A stretch of 33,914 nt of DNA from Phycisphaerales bacterium. Its GTDB lineage: Bacteria > Planctomycetota > Phycisphaerae > SM23-33. Position numbers and translations under genes: made by a program. Every line of letters starts with the position of its first letter. Position 1 is the first letter of the stretch. A model generated the notes under the pieces. That model was not told the origin of the DNA and ran no database searches. It saw nothing but the letters and a program-made list of their open reading frames with translations. The stretch lies in NCBI GenBank assembly GCA_018645065.1, contig JABGPF010000021.1, forward strand, positions 1-33,914, given 5' to 3'. Below are positions 10,641 through 31,049 of the stretch, piece by piece.

Positions 10641-10670
10641 TTGCAGCAACGGAGCAATATGGGGTACTAT
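10641..10670 (+). promoter_or_regulatory. Candidate promoter of the second HzsA-related gene
   Basis: TTGCAG (10641-10646), 18-nt spacer, TACTAT (10665-10670). The architecture matches the candidate promoter at 3079-3108, and the distance to the start codon at 10746 (about 75 nt) is also similar. Confidence 0.45.
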
Positions 10671-10745
10671 ATAGCGTTAATTCGTAAAGACACAACAAGC
10701 TGGACGGACTGTAATTATCCCACCCGAACGCAAAGGAAAAGTCAC

Positions 10746-13662: not shown

Positions 13663-16600
13663 ATGGTCAAGACGCCACGTATCGCCCTGCTAACCATCAC
13701 GCTGGTCACCCTGTTTATCGCGGGAGCGGCCTCTGCGGCAGCGCCAAAACCGAGTCTGAAAGGCTCCAACTGGATATGGCACAAGGGCGCGGGCCAGGCC
13801 GCAGGTACGTGGTATTTTCAGAAGGGCTTTGCGTTTCCCGCAGGTCAGAAACCTATAAGCGCCCGTCTGCTGATCACCTGCGATAACCTCTGGGTGCTTC
13901 ACGTTAACGGTACAAAAACCGCTTGGAACGCCTCGCCAGACTCATGGTCGAGTCCGCGAAATGTGGATATCACCAGGCATCTGGTGATCGAAAAGAACGC
14001 GATCGCAATCGAAGGACGAAACACCGCGCCCGGACCGGCGGGGCTGATGGTGAAGTTGATCGTCGAATTCGAAAATGTCAAACAGACATTCCAGCTCGTC
14101 AGCGACGAGACCTGGATCAGTTCATCCAAACCGGACGAGGGCTGGAACGAGAACGGTTTTACCGCTGGCGCCAATTGGGCTCCGGTCAAGGTTCTCGGAA
14201 AGTACGGGATAGCGCCCTGGGGCAAGGTGCAGGTGGGGGGCACACGCAGGCGTCCGACACGGAAACCCGCTCCTGTGATCGAGCTTGTAACGGACGAAAA
14301 AGAACTCAGCAAACCGGTCTACCAACCCGGCGCCGTTTTTGTCGGCGGCGCGGTCGGTTTGAACGTCAACCGCCAACCGATCTACCACCAGAACATCCGC
14401 GGAACCCGAGCATATTTCGAAATGGACCCCATGACGCCGGCGGCTCTGGGACGCGAACTGTGGTCCGTAATCCCGCTCGGACCCGACGGTAAAAAAACGC
14501 TGCTCTGCGACGCAGGAACCGGAACAATCGGGTCGCCAAGCGTCTCGTACGACGGAAAAACCGTATTCTTCACCATGGTGAAACCAAACGAAGCATACTT
14601 CCATATTTACAAGATCGACATGACCGCAACGGGCGACGCCGCACCAGGCAAACCCAAAAGCGTAGTGCAACTCACCGACGGACCATTCCACGACTACGAC
14701 CCCATGGAACTGCCCGACGGGCGAATCGCCTTCAGCTCAACACGAATCGGAAGCCGCGAAGAATACCACGCGAAATACGCGTCATCGCTCCACACTTACG
14801 ACCCCAAGACCAAAAAAATCCGACCGCTGACATATCACATCGTAGCCGATCGCGAACCGCGAGTAATGGCTGACGGGTCGCTGGTGTTCATTCGATCGGA
14901 CAACTTCCTGGAACGAGCGAAAGTGGAAGTGCACCTGCACCAGACTCGCATGGACGGTACTGCCGGTCAGGTAATCATCGGACCAGGGCGAAAAGGCGTG
15001 AGGCTCGATCGCGACGTAGCGGCTGAACCGGCGATGAACTGGCTCCGCAGATACGGTATAGGCAGCCCGGCGCCGATGACTGACGGGCGAGTGGCTGCGA
15101 TCAACCAGAGCGGTCTGGTGACCTCCGCCAGCGCCACTGGTATGTCGGTGGGCGGCGGATTCCTTCCGTTCGACCTGTCGCCCCTGCCCGACGGCAGGCT
15201 GCTGTGTACGTCCAAAGGGAAAAATCAGATCATCGTTTTCGACCCGAAAGACCAGAAGCCAAAAGCCATCTTCTCCATGAACGGTATCCATTCGGTAGTG
15301 CACATGGGCGCTCGCAAGAAGCCTTCTGTAATGCCTTCGATGATCGACCCCGCCGCTGAACGCCGGATCGACAAAACAGGCTTCCTCTACTGCCAAAACG
15401 TGCTCGACACACAGCACACCGCCGCCGACACGAAACGCATCCGGGCCATCCGAGTCTACGAAGGGCGACCCTTCACGCTGGAACCGACCAAAACGATCTA
15501 CGCGCACATCGGAACCGTGGGCGTCGAGCTGGGAACCGTACCGCTGGCTGCCGACGGGTCGTTCTATATCGAAGTGCCCGCCGACCGTCCGGTGGCGCTG
15601 CAGGCGATTGACGCCGAAGGCCGAGCAGTCATCAACGAGTTGTCGTGGATCTACACTCGCCCGGGCGAGCAGCGGGCATGCGTCGGCTGCCATGCTCCGG
15701 TTGATGCGGCTCCAAAAATGACGGTGGCCACCGCGATGAAAACCAAACCGATGAAGCTCACCGGACAGGGCGACCCCCACCGCTTCCGAGCGAACAACGG
15801 AGCCAACGGCGGGATCGTGAACCTGCAGCTCGATAAGTTCCGAGAAGTTGTCGGCGTGAATCTCATGACCGTGCCCAACGACGCGAGCCTCTCGACGATC
15901 AGGCGTTTGGGAATTCTTCGCAACCGATCGTCGATACCCGTGCTGGTCAAAGCGTTGAAGGACAAGAGCCCCGAGATGCGATGCGCCGCGGCGATGTCGC
16001 TTTCGGCGTGCGGTAATCGTGACGCGGTCAAACCGCTCATGGAGGCCCTGGGCGACACTAACGCCACAGTAGCCCGCGCCGCGGAAGTGGCGCTGGAGCA
16101 CCTGACGGGCAACCCCAAAGGCGGGACCGACTGGGCTGCTATCGAAAAGGCGCTGATTGGCAAAATGTCGGGCGAGGCCCAGCTGGCCAAGGCGTCTGCG
16201 GGAGCGGCGCCGAAAATCGTTATTAAGTCGGCGCTCTATGGCGTGAAGGGCAAGCCCGAAAAGCAGATGGATCTGACCGCGAAGATAAACAAACGCCTCG
16301 CCGCCGGTGAATGCACCTTCAGCGCGAGTTACAAGTTCGCCGGCAAGGATCCGGCGCCGGGAATCAACAAGACAACCGAACTGGAATACTCGCTCAACGG
16401 GAAGGTCAGGAAAGTGTCCCTTCGAGAAGGCGCCGAGTTTAACCTGATGACAGGCTCTGCAGGAAGCATTTCCACCACTAGCAGTAAGAACGGGCAGGAA
16501 GTGCATATGGCAATTGAATCGCTCGGCCATGTCGGCGGTGACGCGGGCAAGAAGGCGATTCGCGATTGGCTCAAGAACAATCCCAAGGGCGAGCTGCGAA

Positions 16601-17706
16601 TAATGATGGCCGCCATCCGCTCGCTGGGCTACCTGCAAGATCGCAAGGCGATACCCGCCCTGGTGGAGATCATGAATGCGAATCTCAATGTCCGAGGAAA
16701 AGGCGGTTGGAACGAAGGCGGATTCAATCAGAAACCGACGTATCTTTGCGCGACCGCGGCGGAAGCTTTGGGGCGCATTGGCGGAGCCGACGTGGAAAAA
16801 GCGATTCTGGCGGCGTTGGCGAAACTAGGCAATTTCGAGACCCATGTAATACATACCGGCGAGCACGGTTGGCTCAGAAGCGCACAAGCCTCGCCGAACT
16901 ACTTCCGCATGCTCGAAGCGCTCGAACGCATGAACAGCAAAGCCGGAGCCCCGCTTGCAGGACAGCTCGTCGAGTCGCTTCAGTCCGATAAGGACCGCGG
17001 GCTGCTGTACGAACTGGACACTTACGAAAAGCTGGTCGGGCGAACCGTCAAGCGCATCGGACGCATGGACGACGTTGTCGAAGCGTGCCTGGCGGTGCTG
17101 GGCGATAAGTCCGGTAACACCAAGCCCGACGCCGCACTGACCAAATCGGTATCCAAAGCCCCGCACAACGAGGGGCACATCAGGAGGCATTCAGCCCAGG
17201 CACGGGCGGCGCAGGTTATCTCAATTGTCTGCATGGACCTCAAATACGCACCGCGAATACGCAAAGTGCTGATGGCGCATCGAGCGGCGAAAGCGTCCGA
17301 AACGCGAGCGTGGGTTTGCTTCATGCTGACCCGCACACTGGGACGATTGGGCGATACCGGATCGATTGACCTGTTCATCGAAATGCTCGCCAAAGGCCCG
17401 ACAGAAGCATCGTTAGGCCTGAACCCCCCGCCAGCGCACATTATTTACAAGGCATGGCGCCCGTTCCACCGCCCCGCTGCCGCATGGTCGCTAGGCCAAC
17501 TGAAAGCAAAACAAGCTACGCCTACACTGCTGAAAACCGTTCAGGAACTCGGTAACGCATCGAGCACGCGCGAGCAAGCCGCAGCAGCACTGGGAAAAAT
17601 CGGCGACAAGACCACACTTACCGAACTGAAAAAAATCGCCGAAGAATACCCCGAACTAATGACCAGGCGAGCACTGCTGAGATCAGCGAAAAAGATCGCC
17701 AAATAG
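13663..17706 (+). CDS. Giant HzsA-related mono-haem c protein with HEAT repeats
   Basis: A 1347-residue exported protein; AAGGAAG lies 7 nt before the ATG and the signal peptide ends near residue 25 (AASA). Residues about 30-185 look like a beta-sandwich, galactose-binding-like domain (SNWIWHKG, TWYFQKGF, LHVNGT). Residues about 220-650 hold TolB-like propeller blades and the HzsA-like middle domain. A single CxxCH follows, C673-V-G-C676-H677. The second haem segment of its relatives is absent. HEAT repeats occupy about 740-835 (IPVLVKALKDKSPEMRCAAA) and about 945-1340. Between the two HEAT blocks (about 851-925) lies the small domain that ends the other two HzsA-related proteins. HEAT arrays bind proteins or large ligands, so this may be a docking member of the set. 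Terminator-separated from its neighbour upstream. Confidence 0.9.
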   Translation: MVKTPRIALLTITLVTLFIAGAASAAAPKPSLKGSNWIWHKGAGQAAGTWYFQKGFAFPAGQKPISARLLITCDNLWVLHVNGTKTAWNASPDSWSSPRNVDITRHLVIEKNAIAIEGRNTAPGPAGLMVKLIVEFENVKQTFQLVSDETWISSSKPDEGWNENGFTAGANWAPVKVLGKYGIAPWGKVQVGGTRRRPTRKPAPVIELVTDEKELSKPVYQPGAVFVGGAVGLNVNRQPIYHQNIRGTRAYFEMDPMTPAALGRELWSVIPLGPDGKKTLLCDAGTGTIGSPSVSYDGKTVFFTMVKPNEAYFHIYKIDMTATGDAAPGKPKSVVQLTDGPFHDYDPMELPDGRIAFSSTRIGSREEYHAKYASSLHTYDPKTKKIRPLTYHIVADREPRVMADGSLVFIRSDNFLERAKVEVHLHQTRMDGTAGQVIIGPGRKGVRLDRDVAAEPAMNWLRRYGIGSPAPMTDGRVAAINQSGLVTSASATGMSVGGGFLPFDLSPLPDGRLLCTSKGKNQIIVFDPKDQKPKAIFSMNGIHSVVHMGARKKPSVMPSMIDPAAERRIDKTGFLYCQNVLDTQHTAADTKRIRAIRVYEGRPFTLEPTKTIYAHIGTVGVELGTVPLAADGSFYIEVPADRPVALQAIDAEGRAVINELSWIYTRPGEQRACVGCHAPVDAAPKMTVATAMKTKPMKLTGQGDPHRFRANNGANGGIVNLQLDKFREVVGVNLMTVPNDASLSTIRRLGILRNRSSIPVLVKALKDKSPEMRCAAAMSLSACGNRDAVKPLMEALGDTNATVARAAEVALEHLTGNPKGGTDWAAIEKALIGKMSGEAQLAKASAGAAPKIVIKSALYGVKGKPEKQMDLTAKINKRLAAGECTFSASYKFAGKDPAPGINKTTELEYSLNGKVRKVSLREGAEFNLMTGSAGSISTTSSKNGQEVHMAIESLGHVGGDAGKKAIRDWLKNNPKGELRIMMAAIRSLGYLQDRKAIPALVEIMNANLNVRGKGGWNEGGFNQKPTYLCATAAEALGRIGGADVEKAILAALAKLGNFETHVIHTGEHGWLRSAQASPNYFRMLEALERMNSKAGAPLAGQLVESLQSDKDRGLLYELDTYEKLVGRTVKRIGRMDDVVEACLAVLGDKSGNTKPDAALTKSVSKAPHNEGHIRRHSAQARAAQVISIVCMDLKYAPRIRKVLMAHRAAKASETRAWVCFMLTRTLGRLGDTGSIDLFIEMLAKGPTEASLGLNPPPAHIIYKAWRPFHRPAAAWSLGQLKAKQATPTLLKTVQELGNASSTREQAAAALGKIGDKTTLTELKKIAEEYPELMTRRALLRSAKKIAK

Positions 17707-17799: not shown

Positions 17800-18594
17800 A
17801 TGGCTTGGAAACTGGGACAACAAGAATCCGCATTTATGGCCTACGTCCAGATGCGAAATATGCGAACGGTTCGTTCGGGCGATCTGATAGCACCACTCAA
17901 ATTGTCACCAAAGCAGGAGCAGAATCTCCTTAGTCGAATGAACCGGCGGGGCATAATTGCCCAAGTTCGACGTGGTTTGTATCTGGCTCCTGACAAACTG
18001 CCTTTGGGCGGTGTCTGGACGCCGGATGAGGCGTGCGCGGTCGGTGCGATCATGAGCGACAAGCGAGCTCGCTACCAGGTCACCGGTCCGAACGCCTTCA
18101 ATCACTACGGTTTCGATGAGCAGATTCCCTCGCGCATTTATGTTTACAATGACGCCATTTCCGGTCAGCGCACCATTGGGCAAATTGAGTTAACGCTCAT
18201 CAAGGTCAACCCGGGACGCCTGGGAGATACCGAGCAGGTGGAAACACCATCAGGCGACACTTTGATTTATTCATCACGCGTGCGGACGCTCGTGGACGCC
18301 GTATATGACTGGTCTCGCTTCGACAGCCTCCCTCGGGCATTCAACTGGATTCAAAGCGATATCGAGGCAAACCGCATTAACCCGATCGAGCTGGTCAAAT
18401 CGGCAGTTCGCTATAGTAACCGGGGCTCGCTCCGACGTATCGGAGCCGTTCTCGAGAGACTTGGCGCGGCCGAGAATGCCCTGAAGCTGTTGGCACGCGC
18501 CTTACCGCGGTCTGGGGCGAAGATTCCTCTCATCCCCGAGCGGCCCACGCGAGGGGTCTTGATGAAACGTTGGGGGGTGGTAAACAATGCCTGA
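17800..18594 (+). CDS. abiEi: AbiEi-type antitoxin (type IV toxin-antitoxin)
   Basis: A 264-residue protein. Residues about 8-65 form a winged helix-turn-helix (MRTVRSGDLIAPLKLSPKQE...LSRMNRRGIIAQVRRGLY), the DNA-binding half that autorepresses these operons. The rest is the antitoxin domain, with the usual YQVTGPNAFNHYGF and IYVYND blocks and a RVRTLVDAV segment. In type IV systems the antitoxin counters the nucleotidyltransferase toxin without stable complex formation. The coding sequence overlaps the toxin gene by 8 bp, so translation is coupled. No Shine-Dalgarno precedes the ATG, which agrees with a leaderless mRNA. The family was first described as phage abortive infection. Confidence 0.93.
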   Translation: MAWKLGQQESAFMAYVQMRNMRTVRSGDLIAPLKLSPKQEQNLLSRMNRRGIIAQVRRGLYLAPDKLPLGGVWTPDEACAVGAIMSDKRARYQVTGPNAFNHYGFDEQIPSRIYVYNDAISGQRTIGQIELTLIKVNPGRLGDTEQVETPSGDTLIYSSRVRTLVDAVYDWSRFDSLPRAFNWIQSDIEANRINPIELVKSAVRYSNRGSLRRIGAVLERLGAAENALKLLARALPRSGAKIPLIPERPTRGVLMKRWGVVNNA

Positions 18595-19465
18595 TCACAC
18601 CGAGTGGAATCTGCATCACGACACGGCGCTATTCCGAGAGGCGGTAAACTTCACCACCGCACGAACAGGCTTCAACCCACGCCTGATCGAGAAAGACTAT
18701 TTTTGCACCGTAGTGCTGGCGTATCTCGCGGATCGCGGTGGTGATAAACTCGCATTCAAAGGCGGAACATGCCTGGCCAAAGTCTACGCCGACTTCTACC
18801 GCCTGAGCGAAGATCTGGACTTTACGGTCCCTATCGCAACTAACGCCCCCCGAACCCAACGCAGCCAAACCGTCGCGACGACCAGAGACGCAATATCCGA
18901 GTTGCCTGATCACCTACCCGCCTTCACACTGACCCACCCGTTGACCGGCGCGAACAACTCCACGCAATACAATGGGGCTGTTGAATACAAATCGCCAACT
19001 ACAGGTCAGCCGGAAAGCATCCTTATCGAAGTCAGCATTCGAGAACCTCTGCTGACACCGGTGGTAAGAAGACCTGCGAGGACTCTACTGCTTGACCCAA
19101 TAGGCGGCGAGACCATAACGCCTGACATAGAGGTGAACTGCATCGCCATGGACGAAGCTATCGCAGAAAAGTGCCGTGCGGCGCTATCGCGACGGGATGC
19201 GGCGATACGAGATTTCTACGACCTTGATTACACCGTCTCGCACCTCGGGATAGACCTCACGAACCCAAGGATGATTGAGATGGTGCGAAGCAAGCTCTCA
19301 GTACCGGGAAACTCGTCGCCCGACGTGGGCCCGCAGCGATTGGCGAGCCTGAAACGCCAACTCAACACTCGCCTCAAAACCGTGTTGAGGGACAAGGAAT
19401 TCAAAGAATTCAATCTAAGCCGGGCATTTGCTCTTGTCACCGCGATAGCAGAACGCTTAACTTAA
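18587..19465 (+). CDS. abiEii: AbiEii/AbiGii nucleotidyltransferase toxin
   Basis: A 292-residue member of the DNA polymerase beta-like nucleotidyltransferase fold. Motif I is intact: K57, G59-G60-T61 and the S74-E75-D76-L77-D78 segment that supplies metal-binding acids. IEKDY (34-38) lies upstream, and the later conserved block has the form EKCRAALSRRD...RDFYDLDY (about 193-216). Family members are reported to use NTPs, and some relatives modify tRNA; the target here cannot be read from sequence. It overlaps the antitoxin gene. The catalytic residues look complete, so I consider it functional rather than decayed. Confidence 0.93.
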   Translation: MPDHTEWNLHHDTALFREAVNFTTARTGFNPRLIEKDYFCTVVLAYLADRGGDKLAFKGGTCLAKVYADFYRLSEDLDFTVPIATNAPRTQRSQTVATTRDAISELPDHLPAFTLTHPLTGANNSTQYNGAVEYKSPTTGQPESILIEVSIREPLLTPVVRRPARTLLLDPIGGETITPDIEVNCIAMDEAIAEKCRAALSRRDAAIRDFYDLDYTVSHLGIDLTNPRMIEMVRSKLSVPGNSSPDVGPQRLASLKRQLNTRLKTVLRDKEFKEFNLSRAFALVTAIAERLT

Positions 19466-22160: not shown

Positions 22161-23021
22161 ATGATCAAAAAAATGCTCGCCTCAGCGGTGGTTCTGTCGA
22201 TGGTTCTGCTCACCGGGACCGCGGCGGCGCCGGACAATAAACCAGTTTACCAATACACAGCCATCGCTCGGGCCAGCGAGGACATCACCGTTTCGGCGAC
22301 GATGGCGGTTCGCGTCGAGAAGGTTTTTGTCAAGGACGGTGACACCGTCAAGCCCGACCAGCCCCTCGTTCAGCTCGACGATAAGGCAGAACGCGTTCAG
22401 ATGGAGCAACTCAAGGCCCAGGCCGACGACAAAACGCACGTCGAAGCCGCTGAAGCACAACTCGCCCAGAAAAAGGTCGACCTGGCGGGAATAGTGGAAG
22501 CCAGAGAGAAAAACGCCGCCACCGAACTGGAATTGCAGCATGCCAAACTGGAAGTTACGATCTCGGCGCTTTCGCTGAAACTCTCGAAATTCGAACACAG
22601 CCAGAATCAATTGAAATACAAGCAGGCCGCGGCGCAAGTCGCTCGTCTGCTGCTCAGGGTGCCGACTTCCGACAAGGACAAACCCGATGACACGTTCAAG
22701 GTTTTCAAGGTGTTCATCGCTCGTGGTGAGTCGGTTGATCGCCTGAAGGAAGTTATACGAATCATCAAGATCGACCCGCTCCAGATCGACGTACCGGTCC
22801 CGGAAACAGTGGTCGAGAAGCTCAAGGTCAAGGTCAAACAAAACGCCGATGTTATTTTCCCGAATACCACAGATCCGCCCGTCAAGGGCACGATCATTTA
22901 CGTAGCCGATGAGATAGACGCCGCCAGCGGAACGCAAACCGTTCGGGTCGAAATACCCAACCCGACCGGACGCCCCGCAGGCAAGAAGGTCTCGGTGCGA
23001 TTCGCCCCGACGCCCCAATAA
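22161..23021 (+). CDS. HlyD/RND-type periplasmic adaptor protein
   Basis: A 286-residue exported adaptor with a signal peptide (about 1-23, AAA cleavage region). Residues about 40-75 are one half of a biotinyl-lipoyl domain (EKVFVKDGDTVKPDQPLVQLD). Residues about 78-160 form a coiled-coil hairpin rich in Ala, Glu, Gln and Lys. The second lipoyl half and beta-barrel follow (IDVPVPETVVEKLKV, DVIFPNTTDPPVKGTI), ending in TQTVRVEIPNPTGRPAGKKV. Such proteins bridge inner-membrane transporters to the envelope. No strong ribosome site is evident. It opens a five-gene operon whose later members also contain HlyD modules, so it is likely part of one complex. No transporter of RND, ABC or MFS type is nearby. 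Confidence 0.9.
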   Translation: MIKKMLASAVVLSMVLLTGTAAAPDNKPVYQYTAIARASEDITVSATMAVRVEKVFVKDGDTVKPDQPLVQLDDKAERVQMEQLKAQADDKTHVEAAEAQLAQKKVDLAGIVEAREKNAATELELQHAKLEVTISALSLKLSKFEHSQNQLKYKQAAAQVARLLLRVPTSDKDKPDDTFKVFKVFIARGESVDRLKEVIRIIKIDPLQIDVPVPETVVEKLKVKVKQNADVIFPNTTDPPVKGTIIYVADEIDAASGTQTVRVEIPNPTGRPAGKKVSVRFAPTPQ

Positions 23022-23055
23022 ATAGTATTTCCACTTACAGCAAAGGAACGAACCG

Positions 23056-23409
23056 ATGGCCAAAGACACACCCGAACCCACAAAAGACACCCCGGCGGAC
23101 GCCCAGACCCAGCAGCAGACCGTACGAGTCCGCATGGATCAGCGCGACGTGAAGACCAGCTACGCAAACTCGTTCAATACTCACGCTCAAACCAACGAGG
23201 TAATCCTGGACTTCGGACTGAACATGCCCGTCCCGCCCCAGCCCGATCAGCAGCCTGAAATCCTGCTGCAAATCACTGATCGCATCATCCTGAACTACTA
23301 TTCAGCCAAGCGTTTAGCGCTTACTCTCGGCCAAGTGGTTCGACGTCACGAAGAGCGTTTCGGCGAGCTGGAACTGGACGACAACAAGCGAGTCAAGGGC
23401 GACTCATAG
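23056..23409 (+). CDS. DUF3467 protein
   Basis: A 117-residue protein; AAAGGA lies 8 nt before the ATG. A Pro/Thr/Gln-rich N-terminus is followed by the DUF3467 pattern: SYANSFNTHAQTNEVILDFG and a later ITDRIILNYYSAKRLALTLGQ helix. DUF3467 proteins are small and uncharacterised. No signal peptide or membrane segment is seen, so it should be cytosolic. It lies 34 nt after the adaptor gene and 27 nt before the GAF-HlyD fusion. A role as a small accessory subunit of this operon is inference. Confidence 0.9.
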   Translation: MAKDTPEPTKDTPADAQTQQQTVRVRMDQRDVKTSYANSFNTHAQTNEVILDFGLNMPVPPQPDQQPEILLQITDRIILNYYSAKRLALTLGQVVRRHEERFGELELDDNKRVKGDS

Positions 23410-23436
23410 CACTGCGACCGGGAGACTTAAAACCTC

Positions 23437-25455
23437 ATGCCGCCAGAACACGCAGCTAATTCCGCGCCCGAACCGAACGGAGCGAAACTACCGACCCTGG
23501 CCCAGTTGTTCGAACAACTGAGCCGATACGACGGTCCGGTCGAAGGCTTCCTTACGCACCTGGTGCAGACCCAATGCATCGCAGCCGACGCAAACGGCGG
23601 TGCGATACTCCGCATTGCGCCTGATGGACGCCCACAGGTGCTGGCGGTTTATCCGGGCGCCGATCCGGGCTCACCGCCGCCGGTCTGGTTAGCGCGGGCT
23701 GCGGAAATCGCAGCAGAAGTCGCCTCAGCAGGCGTCACCGACGTAAGACCGCTGCACGACCCCGATGACCTCTACGGACAGCCCGTGCGAAGCCATCTGG
23801 CGCTCGTACCGCTTACCGGCGGGCAGGGCGCAAGGGGGCTGGCGGCGTACGTACTGGACAAAAATGACGAGGTCATGTTCGCCTCTCGCATCGAGCGCCT
23901 TGAACTTACCATCGTGCTGATGGGGCTGCACGAAATGCGACTTTCGCTGCAGCGGCGGAACAACGATTTGGCGAGGCTGAGGGTGTCGATGGACACGCTG
24001 GCGGCGACTAACGAGCACGAGAAATTCGCAGCGGCGGCGATGTCGCTTTGCAACGAGATGGCGTCGACCTGGAAGTGCGAACGGGTAAGCCTGGGCGTAC
24101 TAAAAGGGCGATACGTTCAAGCTAAAGCTGTCAGCGGCACCGAGAAAATAAGCCGCAAAATGAAGCTGGTTCAGGACATCGAAGCGGCGATGGAAGAGAC
24201 GCTCGACCAGGATATCGAGATTGTCGTTCCGACTGCGCCCGAGGCGACCTATGTAAGCCGAAGCGCCGGTGAGTTGTCGCGGCGCCACGGTCCTTCAGCG
24301 ATTGTCTCGCTTCCGCTCAGGCGTGAAGGAAAGCCCGTTGGCGTAATCACGCTCGAACGCCTGGCTGAAAGCCCGTTCACCGCCGAGCAGATCGAAGCGC
24401 TGCGGTTGACGTGCGAACTGGCGACGCCCAGGCTTATGGACCTGCACAAAACAGATCGCTGGGCAGGGGCGAAAGTCGCACAAGGCGCCCGCGCCGGACT
24501 CAGCACGATCGTAGGGGCCAAACACACCTGGGTCAAAATGATCGTCCTGCTGATCTGCGGGTTCCTGGCGTTCGCAATCTTCGTGGAAGGCGACTACACC
24601 GCCAGCGGAGATATGGACCTCCAGGTCAGAACCCAATACGTGATCCCCGCGCCGTTTGAGGGAATCCTCAAAACCGTGAATGTCGAGATCAACGAAGCAG
24701 TCACAGGCGAAGACCTGCCGGGCGCGACGATCCTGGCGGAAATGGACACCTCAGAACTTCGAGAACGCCTGGCCGCTGCAAAAGCTGAACGCAGCCGAGC
24801 AACAAACCAAGCCGAACAAGCCAGAAACGAAGGCAAGCAAGTTCAAGTTCAAATCGCCGAAAGCGATATCGAAAAAGCCAACGCCAACATTCATCTGCTC
24901 GAGCAGCGAATCACGCTGGCGTCGATCAAATCGCCAGTCTCCGGAGCCGTCGTCAGCGGTGACCTGAGGCGCCATCTGGGCAGGCGATACGAACTGGGCA
25001 AGGAACTTTTCCAGGTCGCCAAGATCGAAAACATGCGGGCCGAAATGCTCGTCGGCGAAGATCAAATCGCCGAAGTTATGAAAAAATACGGAGAAAGCTG
25101 CCGCCAGCGAAATAAAATCCAGCGGGAACTCGACGCCCTGGCTCCCAGCGACACCGCGCGGCGCAAGGTGCTGGAAGGCAAAATAGCTGAACTCGACAAG
25201 AAGCCAAGCGGAAGGCTCGCGGCGCTCGGACACGCCGGCAGGCACTTTGAATTCGTCATCGAGAGGATCACGCCGGTGGCGCGACCCGACGAGGGCAAGA
25301 ACGTTTTCCCGGTTCGCGTCAAGTTGCTCAAGACCGCAGCCTGGATGCGCCCTGGAATGACGGGCGTGGCGGAGATAGACATTGATCGACGCCCATACGC
25401 GTACATCTGGACGCGCCGGCTGGTTAACTGGATCCGAATGAAGTTGTGGTTGTAG
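23437..25455 (+). CDS. GAF-TM-HlyD fusion (cytosolic sensor joined to envelope adaptor)
   Basis: A 672-residue protein with an unusual layout. Residues about 20-165 look like a divergent GAF domain, about 165-192 a coiled linker, and about 195-335 a clearer GAF domain (FAAAAMSLCNEMASTWKCERV...LPLRREGKPVGVITLERL). One TM helix spans about 366-384 (MIVLLICGFLAFAIFVEG). The periplasmic part is HlyD-like: lipoyl halves about 398-440 and 493-530, separated by a coiled coil (about 440-492), then a second coil (about 545-590) and a barrel ending in MRPGMTGVAEIDI. GAF domains bind small molecules or proteins, so signal input in the cytosol could act on an envelope adaptor. The ribosome site GGGAGA is rather distant (11 nt). 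It is followed after 12 nt by the PqqD-M50-HlyD gene. Confidence 0.92.
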   Translation: MPPEHAANSAPEPNGAKLPTLAQLFEQLSRYDGPVEGFLTHLVQTQCIAADANGGAILRIAPDGRPQVLAVYPGADPGSPPPVWLARAAEIAAEVASAGVTDVRPLHDPDDLYGQPVRSHLALVPLTGGQGARGLAAYVLDKNDEVMFASRIERLELTIVLMGLHEMRLSLQRRNNDLARLRVSMDTLAATNEHEKFAAAAMSLCNEMASTWKCERVSLGVLKGRYVQAKAVSGTEKISRKMKLVQDIEAAMEETLDQDIEIVVPTAPEATYVSRSAGELSRRHGPSAIVSLPLRREGKPVGVITLERLAESPFTAEQIEALRLTCELATPRLMDLHKTDRWAGAKVAQGARAGLSTIVGAKHTWVKMIVLLICGFLAFAIFVEGDYTASGDMDLQVRTQYVIPAPFEGILKTVNVEINEAVTGEDLPGATILAEMDTSELRERLAAAKAERSRATNQAEQARNEGKQVQVQIAESDIEKANANIHLLEQRITLASIKSPVSGAVVSGDLRRHLGRRYELGKELFQVAKIENMRAEMLVGEDQIAEVMKKYGESCRQRNKIQRELDALAPSDTARRKVLEGKIAELDKKPSGRLAALGHAGRHFEFVIERITPVARPDEGKNVFPVRVKLLKTAAWMRPGMTGVAEIDIDRRPYAYIWTRRLVNWIRMKLWL

Positions 25456-25467
25456 GAGACCCAGACG

Positions 25468-27723
25468 ATGCCGATCGACCGTCCTACATTTAGTGAATCG
25501 TGGTATCGCGTGGGCGCGTTGTGCCCTCGCCTGCGGTCATCGGTGCAAGTATTCCGCCAGCACTTTCGCGGGCAGATGTGGCACGTGTTGCAGGACCCGG
25601 GGTCAAACCAGTTCTTCCGCCTGAACGATACGGGTTATCATTTTGTCGGGCTGCTCGACGGGAAAAAAACCGTCGCCGAAGTGTGGAACATTTGCAACGG
25701 ACAGCTCGGCGACTCAGCCCCCACCCAAGGCGAAGTTATCGCCCTGCTGGGCCAGCTCTACACGTCGAACCTGCTGCAGGCCGACATCCCGCCGGACGCA
25801 CAAGGACTCTTCAGACGATACAAACAACGCGTCGGACGAGAAGTACGCGGATACCTGACAAACCTGCTGTTCATCCGAATACCACTGATCGACCCGGACA
25901 GATTCCTCGAACGATGGGTCGGGATATTCGGATCAGTATTCAGCATGATAGGCATGCTCCTATGGTTCGCGATCATGTTCACAGGAGCCTACTTCCTGCT
26001 GGGACACACAAGCGAACTGGCCAGCCAGAGCGTGGGCATTCTCCAAACATCGAACCTGCCCTTCCTGGCGATCAGCTTCTGGATCGTCAAGATCGTCCAC
26101 GAATTCGGACACGGGTTCGCGTGTAAAAAGTTCGGGCTACAAGCCGGCGGCGGTGAAGTGCATGTCATGGGAATAATGTTCCTGATCTTCATGCCGCTTC
26201 CGTATGTGGACGCATCATCGGCGTGGGCGTTCAGGAGCAAATGGCATCGCGTGGTGGTCGGCGGAGCGGGGATGATTTGCGAGCTGGTGATTGCGGCGGT
26301 TGCGGCGATCGTGTGGGCGAATGTCGGGCCGGGAATGACTCAGGTCATCGCATATAACTGCATGTTCATCGCATCGGTGACCACGCTCATGTTCAACGCC
26401 AACCCCCTGCTGCGATACGACGGATACTATATCCTCTCGGACATCCTCGAGATACCAAACTTCGCACAGCGGTCCAAAAACTACCTGTACTACCTGGTGA
26501 AAAAATATATCTGGTCCGTACGCAATCCACGCAACCCAGCCAACACGCCAGGCGAAAAAACGTGGTTCGTATTCTACGGGATCGCGTCGACCATTTACCG
26601 CATGTTCATACTGGTCGTGATCTTGATGTTCCTCTCGGATCGCCTGCCCGAAGAGCTCAAGTTCATCGCCATTATCGCAGCGGCCGTTTCAGGCGTCGCG
26701 TGGTTGTGCACGCCGATATTCAAGTTCGTAAAATACCTCGCCACCAGCGGAGAACTCGCTCGCGTGCGGGGACGAGCGGTGGCCTCAACGCTACTGACCG
26801 TTACCAGCATAATAATGGTTATCGGCGTGATGCCCTGGCGAGATCGCGTTCGCGCAGAAGGCGTAGTCGAACCGCTGGGCCTGGAGGTGGTCTACTCACG
26901 AACGGACGGATTTGTGGACAACTTCCTACCGTCCGGAACGCCTGTCTCCGCCGGCGACATACTGCTAAACGCCATGCCGCCTGCAAGCGATCCGCAGGCC
27001 CGAGCAGCGTTCGTAAAGAAACTGAACGCCGAACTCACCGCCTCGCTCCGCATACTGAAAGCCGAATACGACAAGATCAAAAGACAGGAAGACTGGGCGC
27101 TGGCTGAAGGCGAACACGGCGTGGTCGCCTCGCGGATCGAAGAAGCCAAAGCCAAAGCCGAACAGATCGCCCGAATCGAAGAAGAGATAACAAACCTTAC
27201 CCTGCGAGCTCCGATCAACGGGATATGGATCTCGCCGGACGTCGATCGACTCAAAGGCAACTTCCTGCAAAAGGGCCAGCAGATCGGTTTAGTCGCCGAT
27301 CACAGCCCAAACAACCTTATAGTTCGAGCGGTCGCGTCGCAGGAAATCGGCGCGATATTCTACGAACTGCGGAACGAAAAGAACCACAAAATACCGCTGG
27401 AAATCCGCATTTTGGGACGACCAAATCCGGCGTTCGGCGGACATATAAGCAAGATACTCGACTCCGCCCAGGACGTCCTTCCCTCACCGGCGCTGGGATA
27501 CGCAGTCGGAGGGTCGGTAGTCACGCGACAGGACGATCGCCAGGGCCTGATGGCCGCAGAAGGCTTCTTCGAAATTCACGTGACCCCGCAGGCGATGGTC
27601 GACGACAAACCAATAATGCTCCTCCCGGGCCAGCGAGTCGTTGTCCAATTCGACCTGCCGGAAAAACCGCTGATCGCACAATGGTGGCGATCGCTGCTCC
27701 AACTACTACAGAAAAAACAATGA
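25468..27723 (+). CDS. PqqD-like / M50 site-2 protease / HlyD three-domain protein
   Basis: A 751-residue inner-membrane protein. GGAG overlaps the preceding stop codon, 9 nt before this ATG, implying translational coupling. Residues about 15-107 form a PqqD-like winged-helix domain (VLQDPGSNQFFRLNDTGYHF, then IALLGQLYTSNLLQ), the fold used for binding peptide leaders. About 150-460 is a multi-TM site-2 protease with zinc motif H211-E-F-G-H215 and third ligand region N312-P...D318-G (NPLLRYDGYY). About 465-735 is a HlyD-like module with lipoyl halves and a Glu/Ala coiled coil (about 508-575). Similar M50 proteins occur in peptide-toxin and RiPP operons. All catalytic residues are present. It probably cleaves or handles a peptide within the membrane; the substrate is not identified in this window. 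Confidence 0.92.
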   Translation: MPIDRPTFSESWYRVGALCPRLRSSVQVFRQHFRGQMWHVLQDPGSNQFFRLNDTGYHFVGLLDGKKTVAEVWNICNGQLGDSAPTQGEVIALLGQLYTSNLLQADIPPDAQGLFRRYKQRVGREVRGYLTNLLFIRIPLIDPDRFLERWVGIFGSVFSMIGMLLWFAIMFTGAYFLLGHTSELASQSVGILQTSNLPFLAISFWIVKIVHEFGHGFACKKFGLQAGGGEVHVMGIMFLIFMPLPYVDASSAWAFRSKWHRVVVGGAGMICELVIAAVAAIVWANVGPGMTQVIAYNCMFIASVTTLMFNANPLLRYDGYYILSDILEIPNFAQRSKNYLYYLVKKYIWSVRNPRNPANTPGEKTWFVFYGIASTIYRMFILVVILMFLSDRLPEELKFIAIIAAAVSGVAWLCTPIFKFVKYLATSGELARVRGRAVASTLLTVTSIIMVIGVMPWRDRVRAEGVVEPLGLEVVYSRTDGFVDNFLPSGTPVSAGDILLNAMPPASDPQARAAFVKKLNAELTASLRILKAEYDKIKRQEDWALAEGEHGVVASRIEEAKAKAEQIARIEEEITNLTLRAPINGIWISPDVDRLKGNFLQKGQQIGLVADHSPNNLIVRAVASQEIGAIFYELRNEKNHKIPLEIRILGRPNPAFGGHISKILDSAQDVLPSPALGYAVGGSVVTRQDDRQGLMAAEGFFEIHVTPQAMVDDKPIMLLPGQRVVVQFDLPEKPLIAQWWRSLLQLLQKKQ

Positions 27724-27736
27724 CCGGAGCACGCCT

Positions 27737-29734
27737 TTGAACGATATCGCCAGCACAACGTGGCGAATGCTCGCACAACGAACCGGTGGACGCGAACTGC
27801 CCCGCGGACTCGACGCCGCATGGGACACCGCAGCCGGTATGGCCCAAAAATTGCTGCCCAGAACCGCCCGATTCCTACGCCAGGCCGAAACCGTTCTGGG
27901 CTACGATAAAGAGTTCTCAAAACTGACCGAGGCGAAACTACGGGAACAGGCCGGCGAATACCACGATATGTTCCGACTCGGGCGAAACAGCGCCGCAGAC
28001 CTTCTAAGAGCGTTCGCGCTGGTTCGCGAAATCGCATTCCGCCAGATCGGCCTGAAGGCCTACAAGGTCCAGGTCGCTGGCGCCCTTGCGATCTACGCCG
28101 GGTCGATCGTGGAGATGGCTACCGGTGAGGGCAAAACGCTCTCGGCGACCATGCCCGCAACGGTGGCTGGTTGGTGCGGCAAGGGCTGCCACGTCATCAC
28201 CGTTAACGACTATCTGGCCAAGCGAGACGCCGAGGAGATGGGCCCGATCTACCGCTTCTGTGGGCTGAGGGTGCAGGCGATTGACCAGGAGTCGACCCCG
28301 CCGGAGCGTCGCGAGGCGTACAACTCCGACATCACATACTGCACCAATAAGGAAGTTACCGCAGACTACCTGCGCGACCGCCTGGCGATGGGACGCCTGA
28401 CGGGGCTGTCGTCGGCGCTGCTGGCGAAAATCGCCGAAGGCGACCAGAGCGGGACAGACCGCATCGTGCAGCGAGACCTGAACTACGCCATTATCGACGA
28501 AGCCGACTCGGTGCTCATCGACGAAGGCGTCACGCCCCTTATCATCTCGGGCGAAGCGCCAAACGCCGAACAGGTCCAGGCCTTCCAGGAAGGAGCCGAA
28601 ATCGCCGCGAAAATGAAACGCGACCTGCACTACAAAATCAACCACAAATACCGCGAAGTCAACATGACCAAAGAGGGCAAGGCGTTCGCTGCGAAACTTA
28701 CAGAACCGCTCGGCGGGATATGGGCCGGACAACGCAGAAGCGAAGAAATGCTCGTCCAGGCGCTCACCGCTCGCGAAATGTTCCTGCTCGATAAACAGTA
28801 TGTGATCCAGGAAGACCAGGTGGTGATCGTAGACGATTTCACCGGACGACTAATGCCCGACCGCGAATGGCGCGACGGACTGCACCAAGCCGTCTCAGCC
28901 AAAGAAAAAGTCGAGATCAAACCGCCAAAAGACACCTACGCCCGAATGAGTTTCCAGCGTTTCTTCCGAATGTACAACCGCATCTCGGGCATGACGGGAA
29001 CCGCGGTCGAAGCGTCGGGTGAGTTCTGGCAGTTCTACCACACACCGGTGGTCATCGTACCAACAAACAAGCCGTGCATACGCAAGCAACTGCCCACACG
29101 CATATACCCCACGCAAGATGAAAAATGGCAGGGCGTAATCGACGAAATCACAAAGGCACACGAAAAAGGACAGCCCATTCTCGTAGGCACACGCAGCGTG
29201 CACGACAGCGAAAGAATCTCGCTGATGCTCAACGAACTGGAGTTCGAACACGAAGTGCTCAACGCCGTCAGGCACGCAGAAGAAGCCCAGATCGTAGCCC
29301 AAGCCGGACAAGAAGGACGAATCACCGTGGCGACCAACATGGCCGGTCGCGGAACGGATATCAAACTCGGACGAGGCGTCGCCGAACTAGGCGGACTGTA
29401 CGTAATGGCCACCGACCGCCAGGAGTCCGGACGAATCGATCGCCAGCTCGCCGGGCGGTCCGGGCGAATGGGCGACCCGGGCATGGTGCGAACGTTCGTG
29501 AGCCTGCAAGACGAACTGCCCCGCCGATACGCCACGAAAACCGCTGAGTTCCTCCAGAAACGCCACCCACCTCGCGAAGGCAAGCCCCGCAACATCGCCA
29601 ACCCGATGACGAGGCGCATGTTCAACAAAGCCCAGAAACGCGCAGAACACACCGCATTCAAGCAACGCCGCGCCGTCCTGAAAACCGACCACTGGCTAGA
29701 CGAATATCTCGGCTTCGCCGGACTCGAACGATAA
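27737..29734 (+). CDS. Short SecA-like ATPase (SecA2-type paralog)
   Basis: The start is TTG at 27737 with GGAG 7 nt upstream. The protein has 665 residues, about 200-250 fewer than housekeeping SecA. Walker A is ATGEGKT (128-134), Walker B is DEAD (254-257), and the preprotein-crosslinking region is represented by the NKEVTADYLRDRL segment and its flanks. The second nucleotide-binding fold carries MAGRGTD (535-541) and GRSGRMGDPG (573-582). The sequence ends in what corresponds to the first part of the long scaffold helix (AQKRAEHTAFKQRRAVLKTD), so the rest of the scaffold, wing and two-helix-finger regions are missing. The end is a clean stop without frameshift, so this is a natural short form. 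Operon position after HlyD and M50 genes suggests a dedicated motor rather than general secretion. Confidence 0.93.
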   Translation: MNDIASTTWRMLAQRTGGRELPRGLDAAWDTAAGMAQKLLPRTARFLRQAETVLGYDKEFSKLTEAKLREQAGEYHDMFRLGRNSAADLLRAFALVREIAFRQIGLKAYKVQVAGALAIYAGSIVEMATGEGKTLSATMPATVAGWCGKGCHVITVNDYLAKRDAEEMGPIYRFCGLRVQAIDQESTPPERREAYNSDITYCTNKEVTADYLRDRLAMGRLTGLSSALLAKIAEGDQSGTDRIVQRDLNYAIIDEADSVLIDEGVTPLIISGEAPNAEQVQAFQEGAEIAAKMKRDLHYKINHKYREVNMTKEGKAFAAKLTEPLGGIWAGQRRSEEMLVQALTAREMFLLDKQYVIQEDQVVIVDDFTGRLMPDREWRDGLHQAVSAKEKVEIKPPKDTYARMSFQRFFRMYNRISGMTGTAVEASGEFWQFYHTPVVIVPTNKPCIRKQLPTRIYPTQDEKWQGVIDEITKAHEKGQPILVGTRSVHDSERISLMLNELEFEHEVLNAVRHAEEAQIVAQAGQEGRITVATNMAGRGTDIKLGRGVAELGGLYVMATDRQESGRIDRQLAGRSGRMGDPGMVRTFVSLQDELPRRYATKTAEFLQKRHPPREGKPRNIANPMTRRMFNKAQKRAEHTAFKQRRAVLKTDHWLDEYLGFAGLER

Positions 29735-29769: not shown

Positions 29770-29831
29770 GACTATTTTAGTGTGAATCAAAAAATAGTCG
29801 TGACTATTTTTTGATTTATGCTAAAATAGTC
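29770..29831. promoter_or_regulatory. 62-bp nested palindrome over the AAA_14 gene promoter
   Basis: GACTATTTTAG (29770-29780) pairs with CTAAAATAGTC (29821-29831), and inside it AATCAAAAAATAGTC (29785-29799) pairs with GACTATTTTTTGATT (29802-29816), both perfectly, with only GT at the centre. GACTATTTT therefore occurs four times in alternating orientation. An extended -10 (TGCTAAAAT, 29819-29827) lies in the right half, with a weak GTGACT 16 nt upstream of TAAAAT. The ATG at 29835 follows 7 nt after the -10 box. An operator for autoregulation is likely; an AT-rich transcript hairpin is the alternative. Confidence 0.75.
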
Positions 29832-29834
29832 AGC

Positions 29835-31049
29835 ATGAAGAAGCGGACTTACTACAGGAATGCATGGGAGGAGTTCGATGCGGAAAAGCACATGGTGCTT
29901 ATTTCCGGGCCTCGGCAGACGGGAAAGACGACACTGGCCAGGGACATTGCATCGCGCCAGGCCGCGTCGGTTTACTTTAACTACGATGTCCCTACCGACC
30001 GGGCGAAATTGTTGAAAAACCCCGTATTCTTCGAGGAAACAGACCGCAAGAAAAACGATGTTCCGCTGGTTGTCCTCGATGAAATTCACAAGTACTCGGA
30101 CTGGAAGAACTATCTGAAAGGCGTGTACGATGGTTACAGCGACGCCTTTCGGTTCCTTATCACCGGTAGCGGCCGGCTGGATCTTTCACGCCACAAAGGC
30201 GATTCGTTGGCGGGACGATATCTGCACTTTCACATCTTCCCGTTCACGCTGGGGGAACTGTTCTCATCGTCAACCGCCGCGGTCTCCGCATCGCACTTGA
30301 AAACGATCCCTCAAACCAATCGTCCGGCCCGCAAGGCATGGGACACCATGTTCCACGTCAGCGGGTTTCCCGAACCGTTCATGAAGGGCACGGAGAAATC
30401 CTACAGGCGATGGGCCGCGAGCTATCACAGCCAGGTTATCCGTGACGATATCCGCGATGAATTCGCTGTCCGCCGCATCGACCGGATGGAGATGTTGTAT
30501 CTCCTGCTTGCCGACCGCGTGGGCAGTCCGATTTCGGTCGCGGCGTTGGCGGGGATATTGAAAGTGGCGCACACCACCGTCACGTCGTGGCTTGACGTGC
30601 TGGAACGGTTCTTTCTGACGTTCAGACTTCGCCCGTACAGCAAGCGTGTCTCGCGCAGCCTCGTGAAAGATTCAAAACTCTACTTCTACGACTACCGCCG
30701 TATCGACGACCCTGGCGCGCGGTTCGAGAACATGATTGCCGTTGAACTTAACCGAGCGGTAACCCTCTGGCGTGATTTCGGTCTGGGCGATTTTCAGCTT
30801 TTGTATCTCCGGAACAAGGAGAAGCAAGAGGTCGATTTTATCGTGACTGAAGGCTCCGAACCGCTATTCATGGTCGAAGCCAAGCTTTCGGACCCCACGG
30901 TCGGTCCGCAACTGAAAAAGTTCCAGAGCATGCTCAACGTCCCGGCGATACAATTGGTCAACCAGCCTGGGATCGGGCGACGCATCACCAATGGCAAAAA
31001 CACGATTCTTGTCGCCAGCGCGGCCGACTGGCTCGCAGGATTGCACTGA
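29835..31049 (+). CDS. AAA_14/DUF4143 ATPase
   Basis: The ATG at 29835 is preferred over the in-frame TTG at 29811, which lies inside the palindrome. The protein has 404 residues. Walker A is GPRQTGKT (25-32) and Walker B is VVLDEIH (79-85), followed by a sensor-like ITGSGRLDL. A central winged-helix-like segment (ISVAALAGILKVAHTTVTSWLD) and the C-terminal DUF4143 domain follow. The C-terminal part has a PD-(D/E)xK-like signature, EVDFIV followed by FMVEAKL. Proteins of this family are widespread, often found singly in accessory regions, and their cellular role is not known. No Shine-Dalgarno is visible, consistent with a leaderless transcript. Confidence 0.93.
   Translation: MKKRTYYRNAWEEFDAEKHMVLISGPRQTGKTTLARDIASRQAASVYFNYDVPTDRAKLLKNPVFFEETDRKKNDVPLVVLDEIHKYSDWKNYLKGVYDGYSDAFRFLITGSGRLDLSRHKGDSLAGRYLHFHIFPFTLGELFSSSTAAVSASHLKTIPQTNRPARKAWDTMFHVSGFPEPFMKGTEKSYRRWAASYHSQVIRDDIRDEFAVRRIDRMEMLYLLLADRVGSPISVAALAGILKVAHTTVTSWLDVLERFFLTFRLRPYSKRVSRSLVKDSKLYFYDYRRIDDPGARFENMIAVELNRAVTLWRDFGLGDFQLLYLRNKEKQEVDFIVTEGSEPLFMVEAKLSDPTVGPQLKKFQSMLNVPAIQLVNQPGIGRRITNGKNTILVASAADWLAGLH

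Follow-up and report, generated by a model that had tools for sequence, protein, structure and literature searches.

In our study we analyzed a stretch of 33,914 nucleotides from a Phycisphaerales bacterium (contig JABGPF010000021.1 of assembly GCA_018645065.1; the window, by which we mean this whole stretch). Five of its genes encode an HlyD-family adaptor, a DUF3467 protein, a GAF-HlyD protein, a fusion of a PqqD-like domain, an M50 site-2 protease and an HlyD adaptor (the M50 protein) and a short SecA ATPase. The cluster probably represents the inner-membrane engine and the periplasmic adaptors of a SecA-powered secretion machine of the TolC type, with exoproteins carrying an LEPR-XLL leader as its likely cargo. 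What the sequence shows directly is the gene set, ATPase and protease motifs that are intact, the loss of the wing, the two-helix finger and the tail of SecA as well as a statistical link between machine and leader. The leader link assigns a candidate cargo class to an orphan machine and thereby makes its role testable. An earlier note on this DNA proposed a machine dedicated to export and processing that draws its energy from the short SecA. The conserved gene set and the position of its SecAs on one side of a branch, opposite the canonical SecAs sampled, support such a machine with SecA as its likely motor.

All five open reading frames (ORFs) described in that note were present in the given order on the plus strand between positions 22161 and 29734, with intergenic gaps of 34, 27, 12 and 13 nt (Table 1). 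Its domain calls agreed with Pfam matches and with the intact motifs of the M50 protein. The cluster is, however, not undescribed as the note had it. Kamneva, Poudel and Ward reported in the main text of their 2015 study truncated "secondary SecA_DEAD" proteins encoded beside HlyD, GAF-HlyD and M50-HlyD proteins and sometimes OEP, in Planctomycetes, Verrucomicrobia, Proteobacteria, Nitrospirae and Chlorobi (PMC4452313). There the SecAs of the module form a clade of their own and an ABC transporter is missing (PMC4452313). In Methylobacterium extorquens AM1 the module is a single operon (PMC4452313). The authors proposed that the co-opted SecA acts as ATPase in place of the ABC ATPase with the M50 protein as membrane part or pore, and they called the broader role of the locus 'completely unknown' (PMC4452313). 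Similarly, the window SecA is a second SecA_DEAD protein with SecA_SW reduced to a small fragment, its neighbours are M50-HlyD, HlyD/biotin-lipoyl and GAF-HlyD proteins, and it falls into one short-SecA clade apart from the canonical SecAs in a tree built without the sequences of that paper. Since the truncated SecA, its clade, its neighbours and the missing ABC transporter have already been reported, the window locus is a member of the module known since 2015. The terms LEPR, giant, DUF3467 and PqqD do not occur in the main text of PMC4452313. What we add to that main text is the cargo link, the RRE-type fold, maps of the motifs and of the truncation, DUF3467 and further phyla.

According to the earlier note, a gene order conserved over many genera would support its reading, and conservation well beyond close relatives is what we observed. 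A scan of named genomes yielded at least 581 relatives, of which the best 80 loci were kept. In 66 of 72 testable loci a SecA gene lay downstream of M50 with the same orientation, and in 66 of 70 a GAF-HlyD gene lay upstream of M50; the remaining 8 and 10 loci, respectively, were too short for the test. The titles of these best 80 loci comprise Planctomycetota, Verrucomicrobiota, Lentisphaerae, Kiritimatiellae, Nitrospirota and several delta- or Desulfo-type bacteria as well as alpha-, beta- and gammaproteobacterial, Fibrobacter, Rokubacteria and Omnitrophota entries. The arrangement is far above chance and spans many phyla. In 39 loci examined over a wider range, HlyD was found nearby in 35, TolC in 16 and DUF3467 in 8. 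The pairwise distances of SecA and M50 proteins correlated over 77 loci (r 0.80, species relatedness uncorrected), and in the 6 genomes without a SecA gene beside M50 a short SecA was encoded elsewhere in all 6. In Planctomycetota, the home phylum of the window, a profile built from 18 M50 proteins matched 46 of 196 genomes, of which 13 scored 813-1010 bits and the other 33 no more than 528 bits. SecA adjoined the M50 gene in all 13 high-scoring genomes, with a divergent SecA in G028. The nearest named relative of the window cluster was locus L133 of a Phycisphaerae metagenome-assembled genome (MAG), with 83% identity for the M50 protein and 86% for SecA.

The note also stated that the usual partner of HlyD proteins was absent, which holds in the window for ABC, RND and MFS transporters. 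Neither an ABC, RND or MFS transporter nor an outer-membrane channel was found among the scanned ORFs of the window (a few ORFs at its ends were omitted and some were searched against one library only). Moreover, an ABC ATPase signature expression matched within 7 kb at only 3 of 86 loci. A TolC-type gene, in contrast, lies near the module in the 16 wide loci mentioned above, and the genome of the window contains 17 OEP matches outside the window. SecY was likewise not found among the scanned ORFs of the window; no genome-wide SecY search was made.

The short SecA retains the ATPase core and the preprotein-binding domain of SecA. Its Walker A motif is conserved in 91 of 93 aligned short SecAs (GEGKT in 89, GEGKS or GSGKS in 2), and Walker B reads DEAD in 79, DEVD in 9 and otherwise in 5. 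The truncation lies behind these motifs: the 91 untruncated short SecAs have 69-93 residues left after motif VI, whereas the 18 canonical SecAs have 319-575. In an alignment with E. coli SecA the window protein ends near residue 655, and its SecA_SW match is limited to model positions 2-36 of 200. With the domain limits of E. coli SecA, the 93 short SecAs reached occupancies of 0% (wing), 5% (two-helix finger region) and 4% (tail), compared to 92%, 99% and 88% in the 18 canonical SecAs. In a quick tree 92 short SecAs were separated by one branch from 19 canonical ones (18 from the home phylum and E. coli) with a support of 100 in the SH-like approximate likelihood ratio test (SH-aLRT); the long-branched SecA of L077 was excluded. 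The genome search revealed one other SecA in the genome of the window, a frame of canonical size (1249 aa) on a different contig. In public plasmid records two short SecA genes (L115, 16204-18120; L116, 17077-19101) are labelled 'prepilin peptidase', which is likely a misannotation.

The Pfam score of Peptidase_M50 was below the threshold (6.7e-4). Nevertheless, the M50 call is firm because the HExxH and NxNPLLRxDG motifs are intact and H211, E212, H215 and D318 are unchanged across all 31 aligned M50 sequences including the window. A simple hydropathy scan revealed six hydrophobic segments in the M50 protein. An AlphaFold2 model calculated from the 31 sequences reached a pLDDT of 87.4. Its residues 18-105 resemble 6jx3_B, a lasso-peptide protein solved with a leader peptide (Z 9.7, 84 aligned residues, 2.9 A), although GdmN domains of unrelated function tie with it on the RRE-type region (Z 9.7-9.8). 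Residues 192-393 resemble RseP (Z 9.9-10.4), and residues 454-744 resemble MacA (9qgy_G, Z 15.1) as well as AcrA and MexA (Z 14.4). The predicted folds suggest a single polypeptide that could recognize a leader, cleave within the membrane and connect to a channel of the TolC type. An identity as daptide_HExxH or YydH-LiaK was rejected, as the NCBIfam scores were 157 bits against a cut-off of 300 and 38.6 against 225.

As marker of the putative cargo we used the LEPR-XLL leader family NF012209 (NCBIfam, displayed as 'LEPR-8K'; consensus LEPRxLLSA or LEPRxLLSG). In Gammaproteobacteria, the class that includes Pseudomonas sp. MMS21 TM103, 13 of 185 genomes contained the family: 12 of the 14 that encode a SecA-type M50 protein, 0 of the 10 with only another M50-HlyD protein and 1 of the 161 with neither (Fisher 5e-16). 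For Planctomycetota the corresponding numbers were 9 of 13, 2 of 33 and 1 of 150 (Fisher 1.5e-10). The dividing scores, 450 bits for Gammaproteobacteria and about 800 bits for Planctomycetota, were picked post hoc. A uniform cut at 600 bits gave 11 of 12 versus 2 of 173 (Fisher 5.8e-15) and 9 of 13 versus 3 of 183, respectively. All these Fisher values are overstated since they ignore the relatedness of the genomes. Accounting for all machine-bearing genomes reached via the 80 loci, the leader was present in 60 of 78 (from 50 of the loci, with L166 omitted, plus 29 more; L131 was omitted as it shares an assembly with L124), and it was found in 0 of 14 named control genomes.

The link is also visible in gene neighbourhoods. 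Of 63 machine loci, 21 have an LEPR gene at a distance of at most 10 kb, and these belong to 20 of 49 genomes; about 0.9 such pairs would be expected. In 19 of the 21 cases the LEPR gene is on the strand of the machine. In Neptuniibacter caesariensis MED92 (L178) and Pseudomonas sp. MMS21 TM103 (L157) an LEPR giant and the M50 gene are 2-3 kb apart. This count omits five M50 rows at 317-478 bits, one of which (G228:C5:908333) also adjoins an LEPR gene. Plasmid searches matched 75 records, of which six were inspected and five were searched for the leader (L117 was left out). On five annotated alphaproteobacterial plasmids a giant gene labelled 'LEPR-XLL', 'calcium-binding' or 'LamG' stands directly upstream of the module; on one plasmid M50 and SecA are separated by a SapC gene, and one lacks SecA. 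The LEPR model matched the N-terminal end of the open frame of the upstream giant in 5 of 5 records, once mostly before the annotated start. The longest open frame with an LEPR match in our searches comprises 18,012 aa (G235:C10:53906-53959, the genome of L187, Thiomicrospira microaerophila). Four proteobacterial giants were scanned in their C-terminal pieces, and all four contained RTX repeats, as did a machine neighbour of 2038 aa in G028. For Vibrio, a protein of about 8000 aa has been mentioned that combines LEPR-XLL with RTX and serralysin domains, with no export route named in the part of the report available to us (PMC10868602). Among 31 leaders a median of 37 aa precedes the motif with a net charge of +4, and most lack a hydrophobic core (median best 15-residue hydropathy 0.81), values that depend on uncertain start codons; one leader from the genome of the window (L089) does contain a hydrophobic stretch. 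As far as our literature search shows, with preprints outside its coverage and later papers conceivable, the cargo link is new, and as an association between sequences it is strong. In the genome of the window, a TolC/OEP gene (G000:C491, 5439-6590) is located about 5.5 kb from an LEPR leader (12124-12168) at the contig end.

According to the earlier note, a SecA-like gene regularly found apart from the HlyD/M50 genes would argue against a common machine. This applies in part: a short SecA gene stands apart from the M50 gene in ten planctomycete genomes of at least three families (f28, f3 and f68), all with a lower-scoring M50 protein. Yet the two also co-occur there, as among the matches listed 26 of 26 genomes whose short SecA frame (739 aa or less) is untruncated were M50-positive. 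Genes with an N-terminal variant leader, LE(D/E/S)RTLLSA, lie near these unlinked SecAs in 5 of 13 loci (L309, L311, L313, L317 and L318, all f28), compared to 0 of 7 canonical SecA loci. A further gene of this kind, about 6 kb from SecA in G062, was met by chance. A count of leader-like ORFs over 400 kb, for which the pattern was stricter than for the variant leader, did not discriminate by itself, with 1 of 200 in G062, 0 of 179 in G078, 0 of 221 in G112 and 0 of 224 in the machine-bearing G082. The variant leaders point in the same direction as the cargo link and are suggestive.

Several observations weigh against the proposed machine or its cargo, in addition to the overstated Fisher values. 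The difference for the variant leader is not significant (6 of 14 versus 0 of 7, p 0.06), partly post hoc and involves close relatives. The leader was not matched in 18 of 78 machine-bearing genomes reached via the loci, nor in 4 of 13 Planctomycetota and 2 of 14 Gammaproteobacteria with the machine. An LEPR gene is missing from the 10-kb surroundings of 42 of 63 machine loci, although many MAG contigs are short. The match in G132 (L094), with its motif at position 504 in a frame of 773 aa, looks spurious and was nevertheless counted against the link. None of the 9 LEPR matches in the genome of the window is on the contig of the machine, and RTX repeats were found in 0 of 5 of its LEPR proteins scanned, of which two contain lamin-tail and CotH domains, one CARDB, one CAP and one no domain. 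As for the machine itself, TolC was nearby in just 16 of the 39 wide loci, no SecA match was present in the Thalassospira plasmid record (its chromosome was not searched), the divergent SecA of L077 matched neither Walker motif expression, and 2 of the 3 ABC matches are frames of exporter size (600 and 664 aa), both from Sulfuritalea.

In the mechanism that we favour, the RRE-type domain of the M50 protein would bind the LEPR leader and the M50 site may cleave it. The short SecA would push the chain through a channel that the M50 protein forms or gates, and the HlyD modules together with a TolC channel would export it from the cell in one step. This resembles type I secretion (HlyB-HlyD-TolC) in its HlyD adaptors and, for relatives of the window cluster, in TolC near many loci and in adjoining RTX-bearing giants, but the module has no ABC exporter in its set and the leader is N-terminal, whereas type I cargo is described with a C-terminal signal in the text available to us (PMC5018854). 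The M50 protein shares its core fold and the zinc motifs of its membrane domain with RseP and other site-2 proteases and differs from them by its fusion to an RRE-type domain and a MacA-like adaptor. With PqqD/RRE domains it shares a winged-helix fold of the leader-binding type, from which leader binding is predicted. A more far-reaching version is possible but doubtful: the module could be a distinct double-membrane pathway that bypasses SecYEG, in which the RRE-type domain recognizes LEPR and the site-2 protease shortens it. Lacking the finger, SecA would nevertheless move chains of up to about 18,000 residues along M50, HlyD and TolC, and LEPR would be a general address tag of many unrelated exoproteins, about nine of them in the genome of the window. 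If the cargo link is right, LEPR-XLL would serve as an address tag for export, a dedicated exit route would exist for some of the largest bacterial proteins, and a SecA-family motor would operate without the parts that push chains into SecY.

Alternatively, the short SecA might be an accessory Sec factor that hands leader-bearing proteins to SecYEG, with HlyD and TolC acting in a second step from the periplasm. Like SecA2 of accessory Sec systems it is a second SecA-family ATPase besides a SecA of canonical size, its ATPase core and preprotein-binding domain are SecA-like, and the SecA2 of some other bacteria is described in the main text of PMC4452313 as cooperating with the canonical translocase. 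However, the short SecAs lack the wing, the finger and the tail, the NCBIfam SecA2 models scored 440-570 bits on the window protein with cut-offs of 725-1100, its partners are HlyD and M50 proteins, and the leaders mostly show no hydrophobic core (with the reservation on start codons given above). We regard this explanation as unlikely.

A role in proteolysis or signalling, in which the site-2 protease and GAF sense the state of the envelope, the SecA-like ATPase unfolds substrates and HlyD is only structural, would fit the RseP-like region of the model and the usually sensory function of GAF domains, which is general knowledge and is also stated in the main text of PMC4452313. The set is accompanied by HlyD and often TolC, though, and giant leader-bearing proteins track it, which makes such a device quite improbable. 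The PqqD-M50 part could also act on a small modified peptide, as its counterparts do in the pathways for daptides or epipeptides, so that the cluster would be a maturation and export cassette for a ribosomally synthesized and post-translationally modified peptide (RiPP). The best leader-bound structural match, 6jx3, is indeed a RiPP protein, and the daptide_HExxH and YydH/LiaK models do match the M50 protein. Both scores remain under the curated cut-offs, though, and the linked genes mostly encode large proteins (short precursor genes were not searched systematically); we consider a RiPP cassette very improbable.

Table 1. Features of the five-gene cluster in the window (positions of the whole stretch; residue numbers refer to the M50 protein).
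Feature	Position	Strand	Evidence
HlyD-family periplasmic adaptor, 286 aa	22161..23021	+	HlyD_D23 1.3e-13 (Pfam); hydrophobic N-terminus, hydropathy segment 1-19
DUF3467 protein, 117 aa	23056..23409	+	PF11950 6.1e-15; zero hydrophobic segments
GAF-HlyD protein, 672 aa	23437..25455	+	GAF 1.6e-6, HlyD_3 1.4e-6; GAF region, one hydrophobic segment, HlyD adaptor
PqqD/RRE - M50 site-2 protease - HlyD fusion, 751 aa	25468..27723	+	PqqD 4.3e-7; structural matches
PqqD-like (RRE-type) domain, residues 39-103	25582..25776	+	PqqD 4.3e-7, above cut-off; structural match
M50 HExxH zinc motif, residues 211-215	26098..26112	+	intact; H211, E212, H215 invariant
M50 NxNPLLRxDG motif, residues 310-319	26395..26424	+	intact; N310, N312, P313, D318 invariant
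MacA/AcrA-like adaptor region, residues 454-744	26827..27699	+	structural match
Short SecA ATPase, 665 aa	27737..29734	+	SecA_DEAD 9.1e-99; without wing, two-helix finger and C-tail
SecA Walker A GEGKT	28124..28138	+	motif intact
SecA Walker B DEAD	28496..28507	+	motif intact
SecA helicase motif VI (GRSGRMG)	29453..29473	+	motif intact

The short SecA gene starts with TTG. In the GAF-HlyD protein the hydropathy scan placed the single hydrophobic segment at residues 363-389. The DUF3467 protein was predicted as a beta-beta-beta-alpha fold with a pLDDT of 65.7; a SecB-like fold was not found for this model, since SecB was absent among the structural matches displayed, which were weak and COMMD/PC4-like (Z of at most 4.3).

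Besides the cluster, the window encodes an AAA_14/DUF4143 ATPase directly after the SecA gene (29811-31049), which had no BLAST match in the short loci L006-L034 and is absent from the table of 20-kb loci. Three large proteins (3196-6108, 10641-13538 and 13663-17706), one of them with HEAT repeats, contain the hydrazine-synthase-alpha middle domain PF18582. They are probably not anammox enzymes because the full NCBIfam model gives the first two just 33.5 and 31.4 bits, far under its cut-off of 800. Moreover, two genes at 17800-19465 that resemble an AbiEi antitoxin and an AbiEii nucleotidyltransferase toxin share 8 bases and form a type IV toxin-antitoxin pair.

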